From Heyndrickxia coagulans 36D1 (GTDB lineage: Bacteria > Bacillota > Bacilli > Bacillales > Bacillaceae_C): a stretch of DNA of 64,000 bases. The stretch lies in the NCBI RefSeq assembly GCF_000169195.2, contig NC_016023.1, positions 2,666,001 through 2,730,000 of the forward strand, written 5' to 3'. Of this stretch, positions 459 through 15,184 are shown one piece after another. The stretch's first letter is position 1. Each line of letters opens with the position of its first letter. The notes below the pieces were generated by a model. The model did no database searches. It was not told the origin of the DNA and worked only from the letters and a program-made list of their open reading frames with translations. Made by a program: the position numbers and the translations under genes.

Positions 459-519
459 TAAAGAAATATTCGATTTTCCTGAGGCAAAAATGCCCGAAAT
501 ACAGAGGTGAAAGAATTTG

Positions 520-1044
520 ATGATTGCAATTGGTTCGACCAATCCGGCAAAAGTGTCGGCTGTCCGGAAAGCCTTTGAAGTGCTTGACGGGCAGAAAATG
601 GAATTTGTGGCTGCAGGTGTGCCATCCGGCGTAAAAGAACAGCCTTTTTCCGACGAAGAAACGCTGCAAGGGGCCATTAACCGCTCGAGGGCGGTCCTGG
701 CAGCAAAAAATGCGGATATTGGTATTGGTCTTGAAGGTGGCGTGGTGGAAACCCCGCATGGCTTGTTTCTCTGCAACTGGGGTGCAATTGTCGTGGAAGG
801 AGAAGAACCCTTCATCGCCGGCGGAGCAAGGATTCCGCTTCCGGAAGAAATCGCGGTTCGTTTGCGGGCAGGCGAAGAACTCGGACCTGTAATGGAAAAC
901 TATGCAAAAAAAGAAAACGTCCGCAAAAAAGAAGGCGCAATCGGTGTCTTCACCAATGAACTCGTCACGCGCGGCGACATGTTCACCCATATTACAAAGA
1001 TGCTTTTGGGACAGTTTCTGTATCAGAAAAGAGTTGAAAAATAA
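520..1044 (+). CDS. DUF84 family NTPase (inosine/xanthosine triphosphatase type, YjjX-like)
   Basis: A 174-residue cytosolic protein of the DUF84/YjjX family. Members hydrolyse non-canonical purine triphosphates (ITP, XTP) to keep them out of nucleic acids. Visible features are the N-terminal IGSTNPAKVSAVRKAF nucleotide-binding segment, a central GIGLEGGVVE motif, and a C-terminal KEGAIGVFTNELVTR segment. The sequence offers TTG at 517 and ATG at 520. ATG 520 is preferred because GAGGTGA at 504-510 lies nine bases upstream. It follows the M42 peptidase by 61 bases. The exact substrate cannot be read from sequence. Confidence 0.8.
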   Translation: MIAIGSTNPAKVSAVRKAFEVLDGQKMEFVAAGVPSGVKEQPFSDEETLQGAINRSRAVLAAKNADIGIGLEGGVVETPHGLFLCNWGAIVVEGEEPFIAGGARIPLPEEIAVRLRAGEELGPVMENYAKKENVRKKEGAIGVFTNELVTRGDMFTHITKMLLGQFLYQKRVEK

Positions 1045-1974: not shown

Positions 1975-2145
1975 GTGCAAACACCAAATTTCTTTGATTA
2001 CAGGAATGCTTATTATTGTTTAACTTCCCGCTACTGTGTGATTTGAGTCTTTTTAATGTTAAAAAAGATGTGGATATTAGAAGGAAAATGGGAATCTCTG
2101 GCGAATATGATGATTCGTATCCTACTTTAAAGAGGAGATTTAACT

Positions 2146-2331
2146 ATGGATTTATTAGTCTTTTTTAAAGTAATTACGGGGATTATTCTATTGGTTCTTA
2201 CAATCTTTATAATTAGAAAATTACAAAACAATCGAGTGGATGATTATGACAAATATGATAGTTTACTATTATTTTTACTCGTATTCGATTTAATAGTGTT
2301 GCCTATTTGGGGATATTTCTTATCTAAATAA
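2146..2331 (+). CDS. Small two-helix membrane protein, function unknown
   Basis: A 61-residue protein preceded by a good ribosome site (GAGGAGA at 2132-2138) eight bases before the ATG. Two hydrophobic helices (about residues 3-23 and 40-58) flank a short charged loop (LQNNRVDDYDKYDS). It is AT-rich like the following transporter and unlike the backbone, so both were probably acquired together. No family is recognised. Confidence 0.6.
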   Translation: MDLLVFFKVITGIILLVLTIFIIRKLQNNRVDDYDKYDSLLLFLLVFDLIVLPIWGYFLSK

Positions 2332-2416
2332 TTCATTCACTTCAACATTTAGCAGGACTAAAAATCCAGCAACATACGAGAATTTTCAAAGATAAGCTTT
2401 TAAGGAGGGCTATCTA

Positions 2417-3669
2417 TTGAATACTTCACCTTCGCTAGTTAAATCAAATAAAAATTTCTTATTATTTTGGTCAGGACAAACTGTTTCGATGTTTGGTTCT
2501 CAAGTTACAATTGTCGGACTACCTTTAACTGCAGTCTATTTATTAAAGGCTAATTCATTTGAAATGGGGTTATTCCAAGCCTGTGCAACCATTCCATTTT
2601 TTTTATTTAGTTTAATTGCCGGGGCTTGGATTGATCAAAGTAATAAACGTTCGATATTGCTCGTTACAAATTTATTAACTGGACTTTGTCTTTTAGTTAT
2701 TCCCATCTTTGCCTTTCTTAATGCCCTCAATTTTTACGTTTTTTACATCGTTGTTTTTTTATCTGCTACGTTTTCCATGATGTTTGAACTTGCCTATCTT
2801 TCTTTTGTTCCCATTATTGTTTCAAGGGAAGATTTGTACAGAGCAAATAGGAATTTAGAAGTTAGCCGTTCTTTATCCCAAATTTTTGGTCAAAGCATTG
2901 CAGGATTTTTAATCAATATTTTATCTGCTCCCATTTCTATCATGATCGATTCAATATCTTATTTTATTTCATTATTTTTTATGTGGAAAATAAAAATGAA
3001 TGAAAAGAGAGAGACAGTTACAGAAAACATAAATATATTTAAAAGAATTTTAAAGGGACTAAAAGTATTAATAAATAGCCGAATTCTTTTATCTATCTCC
3101 ATATCTACGGCTATTTTAAATTTTTGCAGAACTGCTTTTGAAACCATTTACATACTATACATAGTAAGGAATGTTGGAATGCACGCATCGCAAATTGGAT
3201 TAATCTATGGGTTAGGAAGTATTGGAGGGATAATAGGGGCTTACTTTTCTGAATTTATTTCAAAAAAGATGGGTATTGGGATATCGATCATTGGTGCTAC
3301 CGTTTTAATCGGAGTTGGGGGAATCATTGTTTTTACACCCTACTTTCACTCTAAAACCATCGCTTTAATCTTACTTACTTTAGGACAGATGCTATCCGGA
3401 TTTGGAAACATGCTCTATTTTGTAAGCCAGGTCAGTTTAAGACAGGCTATTACGCCATTAAAAATTTTAGGTAGCGTAAATGCAAGTAATCGGTTTATAA
3501 CAAGGGGAGCGATGCCACTGGGGGCGTCATTGGAGGCGTTCTTGGCTCGTATTTAGGTTTGAAAATGTCGTTATTTATTTTTGCAGCGGGATTTTTTCTT
3601 TCAACCGTAATATTATGTATCACCTCAATTTACAAGATAAGGAGTCTTAATATGAATCTAAACCTATAG
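2417..3669 (+). pseudogene. MFS transporter (efflux-type) interrupted by a frameshift near its 3' end
   Basis: A major facilitator protein with about eleven hydrophobic helices, a TTG start at 2417 and a strong AAGGAGGG site at 2402-2409. The N-terminal FWSGQTVSMFGSQVT segment and the layout resemble macrolide/multidrug exporters of the MFS. The first frame stops at 3556 in the middle of a helix. The expected continuation (IGGVLGSYLGLKMSLF, then ~30 hydrophobic residues) runs in a different frame from 3529 to the stop at 3669. The shift lies in GGGGGCGTC at about 3520-3528 and is best explained by one missing base. The AT-rich composition contrasts with the flanks. A sequencing error is the alternative to a real pseudogene. 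The truncated protein might keep partial function. Confidence 0.8.
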
Positions 3670-3902: not shown

Positions 3903-3911
3903 TGGTATAAT
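3903..3911 (+). promoter_or_regulatory. Extended -10 promoter candidate for rsbK
   Basis: TGG followed by perfect TATAAT at 3906-3911, about 100 bases before the kinase start. No good -35 lies at 16-18 bases, though TTGTCA occurs at 3889-3894 (too close). This fits an extended -10 promoter. The rest of the 3670-4012 gap shows nothing else I can support. Confidence 0.4.
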
Positions 3912-4012
3912 ATGTTGAAAAATCGGGAATAGAGTATAAGCTTCAATGGCTTTATCACTTGTCTTAGAAGTATCGATATATCCGGCAGATGGAAAAACAG
4001 GGGGAAGAAAGC

Positions 4013-6778
4013 ATGGGCTTTAAGAAAAAACAATATGCAGGGTTCGGCGTGATCCTCGCTTTTATGCTTGTTACGGCTGTGGTCATGCTCGTTTCCATGA
4101 ATCATATGAAAAAAAACATGTCTGAAATCGTGCAGGACCGCTATGTGAAAGTAAAAATGGCAACGGAGATCCAGCTGCTGTTTTCGCAGTCCGACCGGGA
4201 ACTTTTGGCCATTATTAATGATGAAAAAGCAAGCGGCACGGAAACCGCTATTCAAAATATTACGGATAACCGTGCAAAAATCGAATCAAGGCTGAACCAG
4301 CTAGACAATATATTAAACCATAACCAGGCAAAGGATATTTTGGCAAAGCTCCAAAATGAATTTGCTTCCTATACGGAAACGGAAGAAACGATTATCAATG
4401 ACGCCAGGCACAATAAAACGGTGCCGTCCGGAGTGATTTCCGACTATCAAACGAAACGGAGCCACTTAACGGGATATATTACCGATTTTAAAAATTTCCA
4501 GGAAAACTTAATGTCGAAAGCAATGAAAAATGCCAGCCAGCTGGAAAAAAACTTGCTGCAGATGATTGTGGTTTCTTCCGGGCTGATGATTGCCGTGATG
4601 CTGTTTATTGCTTACTGGATTGTATCGGGAACGGCGAAAAGCTTAAACAACATCTCCAAAGTAATGACGCATATCAATTACGATGACCTTACGTCACTGC
4701 CGCGGGTGGATGTGAAGACAGAGGATGAAATCGGGGAAATCGGTGCAGCTTTTAACCGGATGGCCGCATCGCTTGAGCAGGCAAGCCAGAAAGAAAAAAA
4801 TTATATTGAACAAATATCGGAAAGAAACTGGATGCAGACGACGCTTGCCGAAATGGCGACGATGTATCAGAATATCACCCATATCAACACGCTGGCGGAA
4901 CGGTTTATTCAAAAAGCCGTACCGGTTATGGCAGCCTCGATGGGTGCCTTTTATTTGAAAAGAGGAGAAAAAACAAAAGCCGAGTTTGTCAAAATTGCTG
5001 CTTATGCGGAAGACCGCGGGAATCCGGGCCGCGAAAAATTTTCATACGGGGAGGGGCTGGCCGGCCAGTGTGCGTTAGAAAAAGAGAGCCGGATCATTAC
5101 CGATGTTCCCGAAAATTATTCGCTAATTTCGACCGGTTTGGGTGAAGCGAAACCGCGCAGCATTCTGATTGCGCCTGTCATTTATGAAGAGGAAGTACTG
5201 GCGGTTTTGGAACTGGCAAGCCTGGAGGAGTTCACGCCGGCGCGGCTTGAGCTCATCAAGCAAATCAACCATACACTCGGGATGGCAATCAACAGTGTCC
5301 TGAGCAGAATGGAGGTTGAGCGGCTTTTGAAAGAATCGCAAATGATGACGGAAGAGTTGCAGGCCCAGTCGGAGGAGTTGCAATCGCAATCGGAAGAACT
5401 GCAAGCCCAGTCGGAGGAATTGCAGTCGCAGTCTGAAGAATTGCGCATGATCAATGAACAGCTTGAGGAACGGACGAAAGAAGCGGAAAAAAGAGCGCAG
5501 GAACTGGAAAAAACAAAGCATCAGTTGGAAGAAAAAGCAGAGCAGCTTATCCAGAGCTCGCAGTATAAATCTGAATTTCTTGCAAATATGTCGCATGAAC
5601 TGCGGACGCCGCTCAACAGCATTCTGCTTCTTTCCGAAATGCTGGCGGATGAATCGGAAGAGGGCAATCTGACCGAAGAACAAAAAGAATTCGCCCGTGT
5701 GATCCATTCATCCGGCAGTGACTTGCTCAATTTAATTAACGATATACTTGACTTGTCCAAAGTAGAAGCCGGCAAGATGGAAATTGTCATTGAAGAGACG
5801 AACACCCGTGAATTGCCAGTGTATGTCGGCAACCAGTTTGCTTATTTGGCAGAGCAAAAAGGACTTGAACTGAAGATTGATGTCGATGATAATGTGCCGG
5901 ATTTGATTTATACCGACCAACGGCGTTTCCAACAGATCGTGAAAAACCTGCTTTCAAATGCCGTCAAATTTACGGAAAATGGTTCGGTGACGTTCCGGAT
6001 GCGCAAAGTGAGCGCAGAAACAGCCGGAAAATACGTGAAAACGGAAGGCGCCGATTTTTGGCTGGAAGTGGCTGTGCAAGACACGGGGATCGGGATTCCG
6101 GAAAAGAAACAGGATCTCATTTTCGAAGCCTTCCAGCAAGGGGACGGTGCGACCGGCCGCAAATACGGCGGTACGGGACTCGGTTTGTCCATTTGCCGTG
6201 AGTTTGCCCGCTTGCTCGGCGGCACAATCTGTCTCGACAGCACTGTCGGAAAGGGCAGCACCTTCATTTTGTATATTCCAAGCTTGCCGAACGGGATGAC
6301 CGCTACGGAAGAAGTGCCAGCGTCGGAAAGCGAAGCAGCGCCGGCATTGCTGCATGAAGAAGATCAGCAGCAGGGCGAAGAAGAATCAGCCGATCAGGCG
6401 CTCCGAAATAAAACGGTGCTGATTTGTGACGATGACAACCGGAACATTTATGCACTGAAAAAGGCGCTGTCGAAAGAAGGCATGAAAGTGCTTGTGTCGC
6501 AAAACGGTTTCGAATGCCTGGATATGCTGGACCTTCACAAAGAGGTCGACATCGTCCTCATGGATATTATGATGCCGGGCATGGACGGTTATGAAACGAT
6601 GCAAAGAATTCGGAAGAACGATGCATTTGCGGATTTGCCCATTATCGCTCTGACAGCAAAAGCGATGAAAGGCGACCGGCAAAAGTGTCTGGATGCCGGC
6701 GCAACAGATTACATCAGCAAACCGCTGAAGATGGACCAGCTGTTATCTGTCATGCGGGTATGGCTGCCGCTAGAATAA
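4013..6778 (+). CDS. rsbK: Membrane hybrid sensor histidine kinase, RsbK-like (TM-sensor-TM-HAMP-GAF-coiled coil-HisKA-HATPase-REC)
   Basis: A 921-residue hybrid kinase. ATG 4013 is favoured over ATG 3989 because GGGGGAAG lies just before it. Domains in order: TM helix ~7-30; extracytoplasmic helical sensor ~31-180; TM ~182-205; HAMP ~206-260; GAF ~290-430; a coiled coil with four heptads LQ(A/S)QSEE (5357-5440); HisKA with NMSHELRTPLN (phospho-acceptor His about residue 528); HATPase with NLLSNAVKFTENG, DTGIGIP and GGTGLGLS; and a C-terminal receiver with LMDIMMPGMDG (Asp about residue 851) and KP near the end. This layout, with a CheR-type gene and a REC-PP2C gene next to it, matches RsbK, the stress sensor that drives sigma-B in the B. 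cereus group through RsbY. The signal sensed cannot be read from sequence. Confidence 0.85.
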   Translation: MGFKKKQYAGFGVILAFMLVTAVVMLVSMNHMKKNMSEIVQDRYVKVKMATEIQLLFSQSDRELLAIINDEKASGTETAIQNITDNRAKIESRLNQLDNILNHNQAKDILAKLQNEFASYTETEETIINDARHNKTVPSGVISDYQTKRSHLTGYITDFKNFQENLMSKAMKNASQLEKNLLQMIVVSSGLMIAVMLFIAYWIVSGTAKSLNNISKVMTHINYDDLTSLPRVDVKTEDEIGEIGAAFNRMAASLEQASQKEKNYIEQISERNWMQTTLAEMATMYQNITHINTLAERFIQKAVPVMAASMGAFYLKRGEKTKAEFVKIAAYAEDRGNPGREKFSYGEGLAGQCALEKESRIITDVPENYSLISTGLGEAKPRSILIAPVIYEEEVLAVLELASLEEFTPARLELIKQINHTLGMAINSVLSRMEVERLLKESQMMTEELQAQSEELQSQSEELQAQSEELQSQSEELRMINEQLEERTKEAEKRAQELEKTKHQLEEKAEQLIQSSQYKSEFLANMSHELRTPLNSILLLSEMLADESEEGNLTEEQKEFARVIHSSGSDLLNLINDILDLSKVEAGKMEIVIEETNTRELPVYVGNQFAYLAEQKGLELKIDVDDNVPDLIYTDQRRFQQIVKNLLSNAVKFTENGSVTFRMRKVSAETAGKYVKTEGADFWLEVAVQDTGIGIPEKKQDLIFEAFQQGDGATGRKYGGTGLGLSICREFARLLGGTICLDSTVGKGSTFILYIPSLPNGMTATEEVPASESEAAPALLHEEDQQQGEEESADQALRNKTVLICDDDNRNIYALKKALSKEGMKVLVSQNGFECLDMLDLHKEVDIVLMDIMMPGMDGYETMQRIRKNDAFADLPIIALTAKAMKGDRQKCLDAGATDYISKPLKMDQLLSVMRVWLPLE

Positions 6779-7066
6779 AGGCAGGCTGAGGGAAGGAAGC
6801 CCGTGAAAAAGCGGAGAGAGGGGTACGGGGTGAAGGAAGGCTGTACATTTTGCTTGCTTTCTTCACGCAGGGAAGTCCGAAAAAAATTCGTTACAGGAAT
6901 TTCTTTGTAAAAAAGGCCGCAAATTTAGCCCGCTATCTTCACATAGGCATGCTCCAAGTAAAGGAAGCACGGGAAATTTTGTTGCTTTTTAGCGGCCGTT
7001 GCGGAATGAATGCCATTTCCGCAATTTCAACAAGCCCAAACTTTAGAATGATGGAGTGCAAAAAGC

Positions 7067-7906
7067 GTGAAAAAAAACCAACTAACGGATGAGGACATCA
7101 GGAAGCTCGAACTGGATATGCTGCTATTTGCCATTTACCGGATATCTGGCTACGACTTCCGCCAGTATGCCCGTTCTTCCATTGAAAGGCGGGTTACGCA
7201 CCGGATGCGGCTCGAAAACCTGCCGAGCATCAGCGCGCTAATCGAAAGGGTGATCCATGAACCCGAATTCCTTGAAGTGCTGTTAAATGATTTGTCCATT
7301 CAAGTGACAGAAATGTTCCGGGATCCGGACTTTTTTGTCGCCTTTCGCGAAAAAGTCGTCCCGGAATTAAGGCAGTACCCGGAAATCCGGATCTGGCATG
7401 CAGGCTGCTCCTCGGGTGAAGAAGCCTATTCGATGGCCATTCTATTGGACGAAGAGGGGCTGCGCGAAAAAACGAGAATTTATGCAACCGATATGAATGA
7501 ACGAGTGTTGCGCCAGGCGGAAAGCGGCGCCTTTTCGCTTCATAAAATGCAGACGTATACGAAAAATTATTTCCAAGCAGGTGGGAAACGCGAATTTTCC
7601 TATTATTACACGGCCGATGCCCAGCATGCCTATTTCAATAAGAGCCTTGCGGAAAATATCGTATTTGCCCAGCACAATCTTGTCACGGACGGTTCGTTTA
7701 ATGAGTTCCATGCGATTATTTGCCGGAACGTTATGATCTATTTTGACCAAAACCTTCAGAAAAAAGTTTTGCGATTATTTGATGAAAGTTTAACGAACCG
7801 GGGATTTTTAGGGCTCGGCCATAAAGAAACCGTGCGGACGATTGATACGGAAGGAAAGTATGAGGTTTTTGACAGAGAAGAAAAAATTTACCGAAAAAAA
7901 GCATAA
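7067..7906 (+). CDS. rsbM: CheR-type SAM-dependent methyltransferase, RsbM-like
   Basis: A 279-residue protein with a GTG start at 7067 and a modest GGAG at 7053-7056. The N-terminal ~80 residues match the CheR helical domain. The C-terminal domain has the SAM site (WHAGCSSGEEAYSMAI, then IYATDMNE), VTEMFRDPDFF and IICRNVMIYF, all CheR hallmarks. No chemotaxis receptor, CheB or flagellar gene is nearby, so a chemotaxis role is unlikely. Beside a hybrid kinase with a long helical coiled coil, it fits RsbM, which methylates RsbK and dampens sigma-B signalling in B. cereus. It is separated from rsbK by 288 bases with no obvious terminator or coding potential. Confidence 0.82.
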   Translation: MKKNQLTDEDIRKLELDMLLFAIYRISGYDFRQYARSSIERRVTHRMRLENLPSISALIERVIHEPEFLEVLLNDLSIQVTEMFRDPDFFVAFREKVVPELRQYPEIRIWHAGCSSGEEAYSMAILLDEEGLREKTRIYATDMNERVLRQAESGAFSLHKMQTYTKNYFQAGGKREFSYYYTADAQHAYFNKSLAENIVFAQHNLVTDGSFNEFHAIICRNVMIYFDQNLQKKVLRLFDESLTNRGFLGLGHKETVRTIDTEGKYEVFDREEKIYRKKA

Positions 7907-7918
7907 CCATTTAAAAAA

Positions 7919-7948
7919 CGGCGAGACACTGCGATCTCGCCGTTTTTT
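7919..7948. terminator. Bidirectional terminator between convergent rsbM and rsbY
   Basis: CGGCGAGA (7919-7926), an eight-base loop and TCTCGCCG (7935-7942), then six T residues. A run of A residues precedes the stem, so it can also end transcripts from the opposite strand. Confidence 0.85.
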
Positions 7949-7999
7949 ACTGTATTTTCACCGGACAACCCCTATATCCCGCTTAGTAAGCCCTAGCAC

Positions 8000-9139
8000 T
8001 TATTTTGCCTGCACGAGCACAACACACATATCATCCGGCTGTTGTTCCTGCAGTTCTTTGGCAAGGACGGTATCCAAGGGGGAAGCGGCCTTTTCCGGAG
8101 ACCAGGTGGATGAAGCGAGCTGCTGCAGGATTTTCAAGCCGTCGTGGCTGTCCGAATCGAGTGCTTCCATTACGCCATCTGTAAATAAAAGGAGTTGCAG
8201 GCTCTCATGGTAACGGAGCACCTGCTTTTCCACTTTCAATTGCGGGAAGAAGCCGACAGCACATCCGCCTTCCGAAAGCGACACGACTTCCTTTTCATCC
8301 ACGAGGGCAAAAGCGGGCGGGTGGCCGGCATTCACATATTCGATCGTTTTGCTGGCACAGTCGAGCACAAGGTAGATGGCTGTAAAATAATCCTGCAACC
8401 CGCCATTTTTATTCAGGTAAAGCATCAGTTCGTTTAATTTCTGCATCACCGTTTCAGGGTCTGCCTTGCTTTGCATTAAATCCCTTAATTTGGAAGAAAT
8501 AAACATGCAGACGAGCGATGCCGAAATCCCGTGCCCCATCACATCGAGCAGCATGAGGCTGTAACGGTGATCATCCATTTTATACCAGTAATAAAGATCA
8601 CCGGCCAGTTGATGAGCCGGTTTGTACGAAGATGTAATGGAAAGACAGTTTTCTTTTATCGGTTCGCTCAAAAGTGTGCGCTGAACCTGCATTGCAAGAT
8701 CGAGCTCGTCTTTTAAATGCCTTTCCTGTTCCGCATGCCATTCTTTCTCTTCTTTCAGGCGCAGTGCTACTTTAAGGCGGGCGATCAGCTCGACTTTGTT
8801 GATCGGCTTAGTAATATAATCGATTCCCCCGGCGTTCAGTGCTTCCGCCAGCTTCCGGGCATCATCAAGCGCAGTCAGGAAAATGACGGGAATATCACGA
8901 AAAAGCTGTGACTGCTGCAGCATCCGGCACGCTTCAATACCATCGATTTCGGGCATCATAATATCCATCAAAATGCAGTCGGCAGGCGGTTTTGGCGCGT
9001 GTTCCTCATTTAGATGCAAATAAGCGAATAATCCTTTAGCCGAAGTGAAAGATACATACTGATCATATCCGGCATTTTTTAAAGTTTTTTCTATGACAAA
9101 TAAATTTACTTTATGGTCATCTACAATTAAAATGGTCAT
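8000..9139 (-). CDS. rsbY: Response regulator with PP2C/SpoIIE-type phosphatase output, RsbY-like
   Basis: A 379-residue cytosolic protein. The N-terminal receiver (~1-120) has DD at 7-8, the phospho-acceptor Asp59 in LMDIMMP, and KP in YITKPINK. A helical linker follows (~125-160). The C-terminal PP2C/SpoIIE domain (~175-378) shows LAGDLYYWY, MLLDVMGHGISASLV, YVNAGHPPAF and LLLFTDGVMEA, the metal-binding motifs of RsbU/RsbP phosphatases. In B. cereus, RsbY is phosphorylated by RsbK and then dephosphorylates the anti-anti-sigma factor RsbV, which frees sigma-B. It is convergent with rsbM and has its own promoter. The rsbV-rsbW-sigB genes are not in this window. Confidence 0.85.
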   Translation of the reverse strand: MTILIVDDHKVNLFVIEKTLKNAGYDQYVSFTSAKGLFAYLHLNEEHAPKPPADCILMDIMMPEIDGIEACRMLQQSQLFRDIPVIFLTALDDARKLAEALNAGGIDYITKPINKVELIARLKVALRLKEEKEWHAEQERHLKDELDLAMQVQRTLLSEPIKENCLSITSSYKPAHQLAGDLYYWYKMDDHRYSLMLLDVMGHGISASLVCMFISSKLRDLMQSKADPETVMQKLNELMLYLNKNGGLQDYFTAIYLVLDCASKTIEYVNAGHPPAFALVDEKEVVSLSEGGCAVGFFPQLKVEKQVLRYHESLQLLLFTDGVMEALDSDSHDGLKILQQLASSTWSPEKAASPLDTVLAKELQEQQPDDMCVVLVQAK

Positions 9140-9282: not shown

Positions 9283-9597
9283 ATGCAGGAATTGCAATCA
9301 ATGGAAGATTTTAAAAACTTGAAAGAAAACGGGACACATATTTTTTTGTTCTCAGCGGACTGGTGCCCGGACTGCCGCTTCTTAGACCCGTTTATGCCGG
9401 AAATTGAAAAAGAATACAGCGATTATACTTTTGTCCATGTTGACCGCGATAAATTTTTGGATTTATGTGCGGATCTTGATGTATACGGGATCCCGAGTTT
9501 TGTCGCATTCCGGGACGGCAAGGAAATCGGCCGTTTCGTCAGCAAAGACCGGAAAACAAAAGAAGAAGTCGAAAAATTTATCGAAAGCCTTGCCTGA
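9283..9597 (+). CDS. ytpP: Thioredoxin-like protein YtpP
   Basis: A 104-residue thioredoxin-fold protein. The start is ATG 9283, with GGAGGG at 9270-9275; upstream in-frame codons would run through the promoter. The redox motif WCPDC (after FLFSADWCPDCRF) and the cis-proline segment YGIPSF are present. It probably acts as a cytosolic dithiol oxidoreductase. The length and the location directly upstream of ytpQ and ytpR match B. subtilis YtpP. Its specific partner is unknown. Confidence 0.88.
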   Translation: MQELQSMEDFKNLKENGTHIFLFSADWCPDCRFLDPFMPEIEKEYSDYTFVHVDRDKFLDLCADLDVYGIPSFVAFRDGKEIGRFVSKDRKTKEEVEKFIESLA

Positions 9598-11857: not shown

Positions 11858-12031
11858 TCCATTCCCTCCTTCAAAAAAATAGTATCACTCATAATGTGCC
11901 TAACCCCGATTTTTTTATGCCGGCATGCCTGTGTTAAAAAATCCCTCGAAAAACATGTGTTTCCTTTGTATAATGGAAGGTGAGAAGAATTTTTGAAAGG
12001 CTCTTCGGACGCATGAGCAAAGGAAAGAGTG

Positions 12032-15000
12032 ATGAATTTGAGCTGGATTAAAAAAATGGCAAAATATTTTAAGGATGAAAACGTGCACGAAGAGGCCCCG
12101 GAACAACCCGGGCTTTACCAGGCACGCCCGGACAAAATAGATACTCGTGTGGCTTATCATTATCCGAAAAAACAGTTTCGTTTTCCTGTAATTCCGGATC
12201 AGGAAGGGGCGCGCCGGAAGACGGCTGAAAAACCGGAAAAGCAGCGGCCACGGGCAAAAAAACATCGTCCCGAGCCACAGTCTGAACGGAGCGAAAAAGT
12301 GCAAAAAGGCCATCCTTTCCGGCCGACGGATATCCCGTCCCCGGTCTTTGGATTTAAACGGCCGACAAATGATTCTGCGCAGGAAGAAACAACAGTGTTG
12401 GAATACGAGCTGGAAGATCATTACAAAAAGGATATCCGTCTCTTGGATATGGCGAAACTGCAGCAATTGCTTGATTTTGCAGAAAATCCGGGCACGGACG
12501 GCGAACGGAACCCGGTAGAACCGGAACACGGCATCCAAATGGCGGATCAATGGTTCGAAGAGGAACAAACTGATTTACCGGCAGATCAAGCCGGGCGCAC
12601 AACAGCGGATCAGGCGGAAAAAGGCGAACCTGTCCAAACGGAAACAGGGCGCGGCGAAGATTCACCAGGTGCGGCAGATGAAGCCACAGGAACGCCGGAA
12701 TCCGAAGCAGCATACAGGCTGGGGAGAACCGGCACAATTCCGTCTGATGAATCGGAACAGCTGACAGCGGAAATGCCGGAATCCGGCCCGGCAAGTGTGC
12801 TGCCAAAAGAGGATGCGGCGGCCGTTTCTCCGGAAGCAAGTACGGCGGACCTTGCAAATGAACCGGAAACCCCTTCGTCGTATGCTTCGGAAAAAACCGA
12901 CGCCATCCAGGTAAACGAACCAGAACAGCAAAACGCAGGAACACTGGGATCCGACCCGGCAAGTGACCCGGCAAAATCGGAAGAGACTCCGGCATCCGCT
13001 TTGGAGAACATGGAGCCAGAACAACATAGCATGGGCACGCCGGAATCTTTAGCAGCAGGCATGCTGGAGAAATCCGGCATAAGCCTGGCAGATGAGCCGG
13101 AAACAGAGAAAGCTACTTCGGCAAGTGAACCGGAAAAAGCCGAAACCGATCCGGCAAACGAACCGGAAAAAGGGAATGCCACGGCCATTTCTCCGGAAGA
13201 ACCCGGCACAAACCCGGCAGATGAATCGGAACAGCTAAAAGCGAAAACGCCGGGATCCGATTCGGCAAGTGTGCTGCCAAAAGAGGATGCAGCGGCTGTT
13301 TCTCCGGAAGCAAGTACGGCGGCCATTGCAAGTGAACCGGAAAAAGCTTCCTCGTCATATGCTTCGGAAAAAACCGAAGCCATCCTGGTAAATGAACCAG
13401 ACCAGCAAAACGCAGGAACACTGGGATTCAATCCGGCAAGTGAATTGTCAAAAGAGGATGCCGCCGTTTCTCAAGAGGCAAGCATGGCGGACCTTGCAAA
13501 TGAGCCGGGAACCCCTTCGGCATATGCTTCGGAAAAAACCGAAAAAAATGCAGGAAATGAACCGGAACAGCGGCATACGGAGATGGCGGGCACTTCTCCG
13601 TCATCCGGCGAAGCAACAAAAACGGAAAGACGCCCGCGAAAGCATCTGCCGTTTAACGTGCTGATGCTGAAACAGGACCGCCGGAGGATCACAGAAAAGA
13701 AAGAGGCCCCGGGTCCCCGGCCGGAACAAGAAAATCCGGCCGAAAACAGCGGTGAAAAACCGTTTTCTTTCCCGTCGCTTTCGTTGCTGGAGCCGCCGGT
13801 GAAGCAGACCCGGGATGAGGAGTGGATCAAAGAACAAAGCTATACGCTGGATGAGGCACTTGAAAATTTCAATGTCCGCGCGAAAGTGGTAAACGCAAGC
13901 CAGGGGCCTTCCGTCACCCGGTTTGAAGTCCAGCCTGAACCGGGCGTAAAAGTCAATAAAATCACCAATCTGAACGACGACTTAAAATTAAGCCTCGCTG
14001 CGAAAGATATCAGGATCGAAGCGCCGATTCCGGGCAAGCATACGGTCGGCATTGAAATCCCGAACTTGAAAAGCCGCCCTGTCCGTTTGCGTGAGATCAT
14101 CGGTGATCCCGTATTTCAAAACAGCAAATCTCCGTTGACGGTTGCGATGGGCCTGGATATTTCGGGGAAACCGGTTGTAACCGACCTGCAAAAAATGCCG
14201 CACGGGCTGATTGCAGGCGCCACCGGATCGGGAAAAAGCGTCTGTATCAATTCGGTGCTTGTTTCGCTCCTGTATAAAGCGGCGCCGCAGGATTTGAAAC
14301 TGCTCCTGATCGACCCGAAAATGGTGGAGCTTGCGCCATATAATCAAATTCCGCATCTCGTCAGCCCTGTCATTACAGATGTCAAAATGGCAACAGCGGC
14401 ATTAAAGTGGGCGGTTGAAGAAATGGAAAGGCGTTATGAATTGTTTGCCCATGAAAGTGTGCGCGATATTCACCGTTATAATGAAATGGCCGTCCGTACC
14501 CGCAGGTTTTCCGAAAAGCTGCCGTATATTGTCATTGTCATCGATGAGCTCGCTGATTTAATGATGACCTCACCGGGGGATGTCGAAGATGCCATCTGCC
14601 GGATTGCACAAAAAGCGCGCGCCTGCGGGATTCACCTGATTCTGGCGACACAGCGGCCGAGCGTGGATGTCATTACCGGCTTAATCAAGGCCAATATCCC
14701 GACGCGCATTGCTTTTTCCGTCTCTTCACAGGTCGATTCGCGCACCATTATTGATATGAGTGGGGCGGAAAAACTGCTAGGCAAAGGGGACATGCTGTTT
14801 TTGGAAAACGGCACTTCCAAACCGGTCCGGCTGCAGGGCACTTTTGTGAGCGACCGTGAAATCGACGATGTTGTGTCATCTGTAAGGGAAACTGCAGAGC
14901 CGGAATATTTGTTCCAGCCTGAAGAATTGCTGAGACAAACGGAAACGGGCGAAGAAGAAGACGAGCTTTTTCCCGACGCCTGCGAATTTGTCATTCACCA

Positions 15001-15184
15001 GGGCGGGGCGTCCACGTCACTTTTGCAGCGCAATTTTCGGATCGGCTATAACCGGGCCGCCCGTCTGATTGATATGATGGAGCAGCAGGGGATTATTTCC
15101 GGGGCGAAAGGAAGCAAGCCGCGGGATGTTTTAATAACGAAAAGCGAATTTATGCAAATGCAGGAAGCGGAAAGCAGAGAGTGA
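12032..15184 (+). CDS. sftA: DNA translocase SftA (FtsK/SpoIIIE family) with a long repeated linker
   Basis: A 1050-residue soluble FtsK-family motor. No transmembrane helix is present, which separates SftA from SpoIIIE. After a ~45-residue N-terminal segment comes a very long Glu/Ala/Pro/Ser linker (about residues 60-560) containing internal repeats. The core has the alpha/beta motor (about 590-950) with Walker A GATGSGKS near residue 729, Walker B IVIVIDELAD near 835, and ATQRPSVDVITGLIKANIPTRI. A C-terminal gamma winged helix (~980-1045, LLQRNFRIGYNRAARLIDMM) reads polar DNA motifs. SftA clears chromosome DNA from the closing septum. ATG 12032 is preferred to GTG 12029. The protein is longer than the ~950 residues of B. 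subtilis SftA, mainly from linker expansion. Confidence 0.9.
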   Translation: MNLSWIKKMAKYFKDENVHEEAPEQPGLYQARPDKIDTRVAYHYPKKQFRFPVIPDQEGARRKTAEKPEKQRPRAKKHRPEPQSERSEKVQKGHPFRPTDIPSPVFGFKRPTNDSAQEETTVLEYELEDHYKKDIRLLDMAKLQQLLDFAENPGTDGERNPVEPEHGIQMADQWFEEEQTDLPADQAGRTTADQAEKGEPVQTETGRGEDSPGAADEATGTPESEAAYRLGRTGTIPSDESEQLTAEMPESGPASVLPKEDAAAVSPEASTADLANEPETPSSYASEKTDAIQVNEPEQQNAGTLGSDPASDPAKSEETPASALENMEPEQHSMGTPESLAAGMLEKSGISLADEPETEKATSASEPEKAETDPANEPEKGNATAISPEEPGTNPADESEQLKAKTPGSDSASVLPKEDAAAVSPEASTAAIASEPEKASSSYASEKTEAILVNEPDQQNAGTLGFNPASELSKEDAAVSQEASMADLANEPGTPSAYASEKTEKNAGNEPEQRHTEMAGTSPSSGEATKTERRPRKHLPFNVLMLKQDRRRITEKKEAPGPRPEQENPAENSGEKPFSFPSLSLLEPPVKQTRDEEWIKEQSYTLDEALENFNVRAKVVNASQGPSVTRFEVQPEPGVKVNKITNLNDDLKLSLAAKDIRIEAPIPGKHTVGIEIPNLKSRPVRLREIIGDPVFQNSKSPLTVAMGLDISGKPVVTDLQKMPHGLIAGATGSGKSVCINSVLVSLLYKAAPQDLKLLLIDPKMVELAPYNQIPHLVSPVITDVKMATAALKWAVEEMERRYELFAHESVRDIHRYNEMAVRTRRFSEKLPYIVIVIDELADLMMTSPGDVEDAICRIAQKARACGIHLILATQRPSVDVITGLIKANIPTRIAFSVSSQVDSRTIIDMSGAEKLLGKGDMLFLENGTSKPVRLQGTFVSDREIDDVVSSVRETAEPEYLFQPEELLRQTETGEEEDELFPDACEFVIHQGGASTSLLQRNFRIGYNRAARLIDMMEQQGIISGAKGSKPRDVLITKSEFMQMQEAESRE
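12746..13541 (+). repeat. Internal in-frame repeats in the sftA linker
   Basis: A ~220-base unit at 12746-12965 recurs at 13220-13439, exactly 474 bases (158 codons) later, with long near-identical stretches (for example around 12791 and 13265). A partial third copy lies at 13454-13541. All keep the reading frame, so the linker grew by duplication. Confidence 0.85.

Follow-up and report, generated by a model that had tools for sequence, protein, structure and literature searches.

An RsbK-RsbM-RsbY-type module in Heyndrickxia coagulans 36D1, a probable sigma-B input alongside a complete stressosome operon

The window analyzed here is a stretch of 64,000 nucleotides (G000:C1:2666001-2730000; guanine-cytosine (GC) content 47.8%) within the single-contig, 3.55-Mb genome of Heyndrickxia coagulans 36D1. 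It carries intact genes for an RsbK-like hybrid histidine kinase (K), an RsbM-like methyltransferase (M) and an RsbY-like phosphatase (Y), which are read, with a probability of about 0.85, as an RsbK-RsbM-RsbY input to sigma-B that is parallel to a complete stressosome input in the same cell. This reading was based on the intact genes, their catalytic residues, gene order, the clades formed by the proteins, co-occurrence with RsbW, the presence of the second input and an ancestry with losses; phosphotransfer, methylation and action on RsbV are proposed by analogy with Bacillus cereus, as described in the excerpts of PMC4574943, PMC9912610 and PMC7522486 used here. Genomes and loci are designated below by G and L numbers, the window genome being G000.

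In the proposed mechanism, the four-helix domain at the N-terminus of K and its GAF domain would detect a signal, whereupon K would autophosphorylate at His536 (numbered from the 3989 start) and pass the phosphate to the receiver domain (REC) of Y, switching on the PP2C domain. Y would then dephosphorylate RsbV, which would pair with RsbW and leave sigma-B free. RsbM would damp K by methylating Glu residues of its SEELQ helix, holding the kinase off, and one RsbV would receive the output of two phosphatases, RsbU under the control of RsbRST and RsbY under that of K.

Module proteins and their relatives

The kinase, CheR-type methyltransferase and REC-PP2C phosphatase that the initial annotation placed side by side between ytoP and ytpP were all recovered there as intact open reading frames (ORFs), bounded by ytoP and a DUF84 gene on one side and by ytpP-ytpQ-ytpR on the other, with rsbY converging on rsbM from the opposite strand (Table 1). 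The kinase ORF spans 3989-6778, and the start common to its relatives (4013) gives a protein of 921 amino acids (aa). Pfam matches over cut-off were 4HB_MCP_1, HAMP, GAF, HisKA, HATPase_c and Response_reg, and the architecture expected of RsbK (extracytoplasmic sensor, HAMP, GAF, S-helix, HisKA, HATPase and C-terminal REC) was present. The phospho-accepting His of the H-box (residue 536 from start 3989, 528 from 4013) and Asp of REC (859 and 851, respectively) were kept in 29/29 kinases of the clade described below, the window's included, and in 14/14 others aligned; L099 was left out of this check.

The methyltransferase adjoining the kinase is a dedicated CheR-type protein, distinct from chemotaxis CheR. 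RsbM-type matches below E=1e-70 were 44-76% identical, the next matches began at about E=1e-41 (fusion proteins), and proteins of canonical CheR length appeared from about 1e-33. The genome has two CheR-family matches, the second at 3168 kb, about 0.5 Mb from rsbM. In Y, the acidic positions of REC and PP2C were aligned by eye with those of relatives, and the PP2C positions also with RsbU and RsbX. A PDB sequence search with Y returned REC and PP2C relatives, the best being a probable two-component response regulator (E=3.6e-24). No listed NCBIfam model exceeded its curated cut-off for K, M or Y (best 25 listed for K and Y).

The SEELQ segment of the K S-helix is presumed to be the methylated segment, by analogy with B. 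cereus RsbK (PMC4574943, excerpt). One extra SEELQ heptad was present in 9 of the 29 clade kinases, the four genus members among them, and absent in the other 20. The copy number of the DNA tandem repeat that encodes the heptads (5349-5444 in the window) varies between relatives and could tune the methylation range. Among 26 kinases scanned for a sensor domain, 16 matched 4HB_MCP_1 and nine matched CHASE3. Ten were scanned singly, with CHASE3 found in seven: five from sigB clusters or G168 (L094, L204, L077, L095 and L098) and the unlinked L092 and L061.

Trees were built from 59 methyltransferases and from 51 of 55 extracted kinases (L051, L052, L088 and L106 were dropped for failed or short extraction). 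The window M fell in a 33-row clade (support 98/98) and the window K in a 30-row clade (Shimodaira-Hasegawa-like approximate likelihood ratio test (SH-aLRT) 100), the latter being the M-clade loci less three without a usable K. Rather than grouping with unrelated hybrid kinases, the window proteins were placed in both trees with homologues from sigB-linked loci, namely Neobacillus cucumis L094, N. citreus L204 and Paenibacillus L095, L098 and L138. The two Neobacillus loci have the order rsbV-rsbW-sigB-rsbY then rsbK-rsbM, and in the three Paenibacillus loci rsbV-, rsbW- and sigma-like genes adjoin K-M; in G168, rsbY lies inside rsbV-rsbW-sigB-rsbY (L067). Y was found within the fetched stretch in 29/33 clade loci (none in L077 (G168, Y elsewhere), L098, L099 or L121). 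In 25 of these 29, the window's included and intervening genes allowed, Y lay downstream of M and was encoded on the other strand.

A further group of loci (L079-L091, L100 and L103) carries an RsbK-like kinase and an RsbM-type methyltransferase, mostly without a strong Y and with a short REC-like match adjoining M; upstream in L080 there is a REC-PP2C match of 27% identity. These are taken here as a sister set of M-regulated kinases.

Stressosome genes and co-occurrence of the two inputs

A complete rsbRSTUVW-sigB-rsbX operon was found on the same chromosome between ndoA and tex (locus L006), about 1.03 Mb from K-M-Y. The initial annotation had correctly set the module away from any sigB operon in the window, and rsbV, rsbW and sigB were all present in the rest of the genome. 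Its implied choice between an RsbK type and an RsbRST stressosome type did not hold, as the search for rsbRST returned the complete operon and both inputs are present. Five SpoIIE-type PP2C matches were found in the genome: RsbU, RsbY, RsbX, a SpoIIE-like 844-aa frame with neighbors typical of spoIIE and a PrpC-like gene that adjoins a kinase gene, the last two being recognized from sequence and neighbors with no curated model. There was no RsbP among the five. Seven STAS matches comprised one RsbV plus SpoIIAA-, RsbR- and RsbS-like frames, assigned by length and place. With RsbU and RsbY present and one RsbV, there are two phosphatases that could act on RsbV.

Between G000 and G273, the ratio of non-synonymous to synonymous substitution rates (dN/dS) was 0.08 for K, 0.05 for M, 0.14 for Y and 0.06-0.17 for rsbR to rsbX. 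Purifying selection acts on both arms, which are retained in genomes that have the two together. Identity of K, M and Y to their counterparts in three genus-mates is 66-98%, and this conservation together with the low dN/dS makes the module more than a chance arrangement.

The window module resembles B. cereus RsbK-RsbM-RsbY (excerpts of PMC4574943 and PMC9912610) in its three protein types, including the REC-PP2C partner, in having the kinase and methyltransferase genes in an operon, and in the HAMP-GAF-S-helix-HK-REC architecture. The B. cereus cluster is given as rsbV-rsbW-sigB-bc1005-rsbY-rsbM-rsbK-bc1009 (PMC9912610, excerpt), and its RsbK is described with CHASE3 (PMC4574943, excerpt). 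By contrast, the window module lies apart from sigB and has rsbY converging on rsbM, its kinase sensor matches 4HB_MCP_1 rather than CHASE3, and a complete stressosome input coexists in the genome. Location in a sigB cluster was treated as a variable rather than a defining feature of the module, since the K-M-Y clade has both linked and unlinked loci. The likeness to the B. subtilis RsbRST-RsbU stressosome is that both inputs converge on RsbV through a PP2C phosphatase; unlike RsbU, RsbY has an N-terminal REC and is presumably kinase-driven, not RsbT-driven.

Co-occurrence was surveyed in 249 genomes of the order, with the window genome counted in each category. At the thresholds used, 62 genomes were positive for RsbM-type (E<1e-70), 29 for strong RsbY (E<1e-110), 208 for RsbW (E<=1e-25) and 190 for strong RsbT (E<1e-40). 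RsbW was present in 29/29 genomes with Y and 179/220 without (Fisher p=0.006; this and the following p values are indicative, as genomes are not phylogenetically independent). Among RsbW-positive genomes, RsbT was equally common with Y (27/29) and without it (163/179; p=1), so the two inputs are not mutually exclusive, and mutual exclusion was rejected on these counts.

Several observations weigh against assigning the module to sigma-B. No convincing sigma-B promoter stands before K or Y in the window (the best scores were equaled in 23 and 44 of 200 shuffles, respectively). The K and M trees contain no B. cereus protein, there being none among the best 80 named records listed. Five Paenibacillus-type loci (L101, L102, L106, L108 and L111) have a Y-like PP2C near an M that lies outside the M clade, and the longer kinases of L101, L102, L108 and L111 lie outside the K clade as well; rsbV-, rsbW- and sigma-like genes are near four of the five. 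The RsbM-type methyltransferase family is far wider than sigma-B, with relatives of about 50% identity on plasmids of Agrobacterium, Sphingomonas and Deinococcus and further members in Nostoc, Pseudomonas and Bacteroidota genomes, and M without Y is unlinked to RsbW (26/33 versus 153/187 in the rest; p=0.64). G041, a genus member discussed below, also encodes an RsbU-like PP2C (28%), whose gene shares an operon of its own with two STAS genes. On these grounds, three candidate statements were abandoned: that RsbM alone marks a sigma-B module, that every Y-bearing locus belongs to the K clade (L106 being outside for M, the other four for K and M), and that G041 has no RsbU-type phosphatase other than RsbY.

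It is unlikely that the intact module signals elsewhere, with its Y directed at a different anti-anti-sigma factor or at a non-sigma target. The distance of about 1.03 Mb from sigB, the many systems served by M-type methyltransferases and the other STAS proteins in the genome are as expected of such a module. However, no STAS or anti-sigma gene adjoins K-M-Y, clade homologues sit in sigB clusters, RsbY was not found without RsbW in any of the 29 genomes, and G041 has kept K-M-Y and rsbV-rsbW-sigB with no other input at its sigB locus. A role of K-M-Y as a sigma-B input is preferred.

States of the two inputs within the genus

The family search covered 34 genomes, five of them from the window genus (G000, G273, G111, G272 and G041). 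A species tree of seven concatenated proteins (without tex and ytpR, which were not found in the outgroup stretches) gave ((((G000,G273),G111),G272),G041) with all nodes at 100. Three of the five genomes have both inputs. K-M-Y is followed by ytpP-ytpQ-ytpR in G000, G273, G272 and G041, and the site is flanked by DUF84 and ytoP in G000, G041 and G111; neither of these two genes was detected in the G273 and G272 stretches examined.

In G111, ytoP-DUF84 and ytpP-ytpQ-ytpR are present with only about 345 bp matching the start of rsbK between them. This remnant aligns to window positions 3998-4356 (E=7e-33; 68% over 366 aligned positions); the matches fall in two frames, and stops are present. The genome search gave no RsbM-type or RsbY match in G111, which retains a complete rsbRSTUVW-sigB-rsbX operon. 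In G041, the sigB locus reads alr-ndoA-rsbV-rsbW-sigB-tex on one contig, without rsbR, rsbS, rsbT, rsbU or rsbX; genome-wide, RsbT was without a match at E<=1e-15, none of the STAS frames had the length of RsbR (270-350 aa), and none of its four PP2C matches was RsbX-like. The outgroups G139, G239 and G249 have a full stressosome operon. Given the species tree, the gene distribution and these outgroup operons, the ancestor of the genus most likely had both inputs, with the stressosome subsequently lost in G041 and K-M-Y in G111. The suggestion that the locus would help to trace the exchange of inputs was borne out as reciprocal loss from a dual-input ancestor and not as replacement at one site.

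A 520-aa protein of G041 (L224, 1238-2800) resembles a histidine kinase at its N-terminus and RsbR in its C-terminal part (25% identity), and the statement that no RsbR-like sequence is left in that genome was dropped. Similar operons in G041 (L219, 925-4471) and G168 (L221, 7131-10677) encode a STAS protein, an RsbU-like PP2C of 276-279 aa, a 675-690-aa protein and a second STAS protein, which make up another partner-switch unit.

Gain of K-M-Y by horizontal transfer into the ytoP-ytpP interval within the genus, in place of ancestral presence, was judged improbable. Nothing is inserted at the site in G139 and G239, both of the same family, K-M-Y of G139 and G249 has no ytp gene in the 18-19 kb fetched around it, and a full-length K was found in 6/34 family genomes, all of which would suit a gain. 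Against it, the K and Y trees match the species order within the genus with no conflict from the M tree, the right flank is common to the deepest branch (G041), and the G111 remnant occupies the same site. Ancestral presence in the genus is preferred, and an arrival of K-M-Y before the genus radiated is possible. It is very unlikely that G041 still has its stressosome genes, hidden by an assembly gap or placed at another locus, even though the assembly is a draft of about 60 contigs, the L224 protein is partly RsbR-like and N. cucumis has rsbS-T-U-X apart from sigB (L220, below), because the alr-to-tex stretch is continuous on one contig, the RsbT, STAS and RsbX-like searches above were negative and the genome is rated 99% complete.

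A stressosome-less sigB locus together with K-M-Y was also found in Cytobacillus massiliigabonensis (L199, L093), N. citreus (L204) and G168, with stressosome absence in C. massiliigabonensis and N. citreus judged from the sigB loci and STAS sets (RsbT was not searched there). N. cucumis has a relocated stressosome (L220, 6357-10140), consisting of stand-alone rsbS-rsbT-rsbU-rsbX followed by an RsbR-like gene, away from rsbV-rsbW-sigB-rsbY-rsbK-rsbM; absence at the sigB locus is thus not absence from the genome. C. massiliigabonensis has two rsbV-rsbW-sigB sets (L199, L200); rsbRSTU and rsbX are missing from the one that occupies the ndoA-tex site. Lysinibacillus fusiformis (L198, 5451-9225) has ndoA-rsbT-rsbU-rsbV-rsbW-sigB with no rsbR or rsbS match between ndoA and rsbT.

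A sigma-B promoter match precedes rsbV in all five genus genomes (0 to 16 of 200 shuffles scored as high), at -68 in G041 (GTTTTG-N14-GGGTAG; 16/200 shuffles) and at -68 or -69 in the other four. If both inputs were present, deletion of rsbR-S-T-U down to the promoter before rsbV could be survived because K-M-Y would already feed RsbV. The odds are about even that dual input is the usual state in module-carrying Bacillaceae, with B. cereus-like single-input species arising by repeated deletion of rsbR-S-T-U (and rsbX) and the converse loss also occurring, the inputs being interchangeable and neither essential.

Local features and biological context

An AT-rich stretch at 2001-3556 (GC 0.30-0.33 versus 0.48 for the window) carries an MFS transporter gene between DUF84 and rsbK. 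It was not found at the K-M-Y site of G041 or G111 and looks like a later insertion. Upstream of rsbK, GGGWAT occurs at an aligned place in four of the five genus members, and within the genus a good sigma-B promoter match precedes K only in G272 (1/200 shuffles). A pattern scan gave 14 terminator-like hairpins in the region, compared with a mean of 8.2 in shuffles. A long ORF at 12029-15184 (1051 aa) has a degenerate, repetitive N-terminal region with a tandem repeat at 13087-13176 and appears FtsK/SpoIIIE-like when inspected by eye.

Table 1. Features of the K-M-Y site, in window coordinates.
Feature	Position	Strand	Basis or remark
DUF84 (PRK03114-type) gene, left flank of the K-M-Y site	517..1044	+	
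TATAAT-like box and GGGAAT element upstream of rsbK	3905..3930	+	Weak, suggestive; 23/200 shuffles score as high
rsbK-like membrane hybrid histidine kinase	4013..6778	+	ORF list, Pfam domains, alignment; alternative ORF start 3989
21-bp tandem repeat coding SEELQ heptads of the S-helix	5349..5444	+	
rsbM-like CheR-family methyltransferase, 279 aa	7067..7906	+	CheR_N and CheR domains, tree
Terminator-like hairpin between convergent rsbM and rsbY	7912..7949	+	Pattern scan
rsbY-like response regulator with PP2C phosphatase domain (REC-PP2C), 379 aa	8000..9139	-	Domains, alignment, tree
ytpP thioredoxin-like gene, right flank of the K-M-Y site	9283..9597	+	ORF listed from 9211; start 9283 is our reading

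The dual state of B. coagulans is already in print (PMC9847131, 2023). In the excerpts of that paper used here, RsbKYM is reported, from a set of 125 Bacillales genomes, for B. cereus, Paenibacillus and B. coagulans; separately, B. coagulans is counted with the species that have the complete stressosome, rsbU and rsbX included; and RsbKYM is described as earlier known to be B. cereus group-specific, that of B. coagulans being previously undescribed. The module and stressosome predicted there are probably the same as those described above, and the locus, gene order, phylogeny and losses in relatives come from the present analysis. No account of reciprocal loss within the genus, or of order-wide co-occurrence of the inputs, was found in the searches made of the open-access literature. 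Such modules in Gram-positive bacteria are reportedly the subject of de Been et al. 2011 (Microbiology 157:3-12).

Descriptions of sigma-B control present the stressosome of B. subtilis and the two-component input of B. cereus as alternatives. Here, five genomes of one genus display all three states (both inputs, or either alone), with the site and a remnant still readable, and the genus offers a natural strain set for asking whether the inputs are redundant or sense different stresses. If the dual-input reading is correct, G041 and G111 represent opposite fates of a single ancestor that had both inputs, and a dual-input ancestor followed by loss would be a concrete route by which the general stress response is rewired while RsbV-RsbW-sigB stays unmoved.

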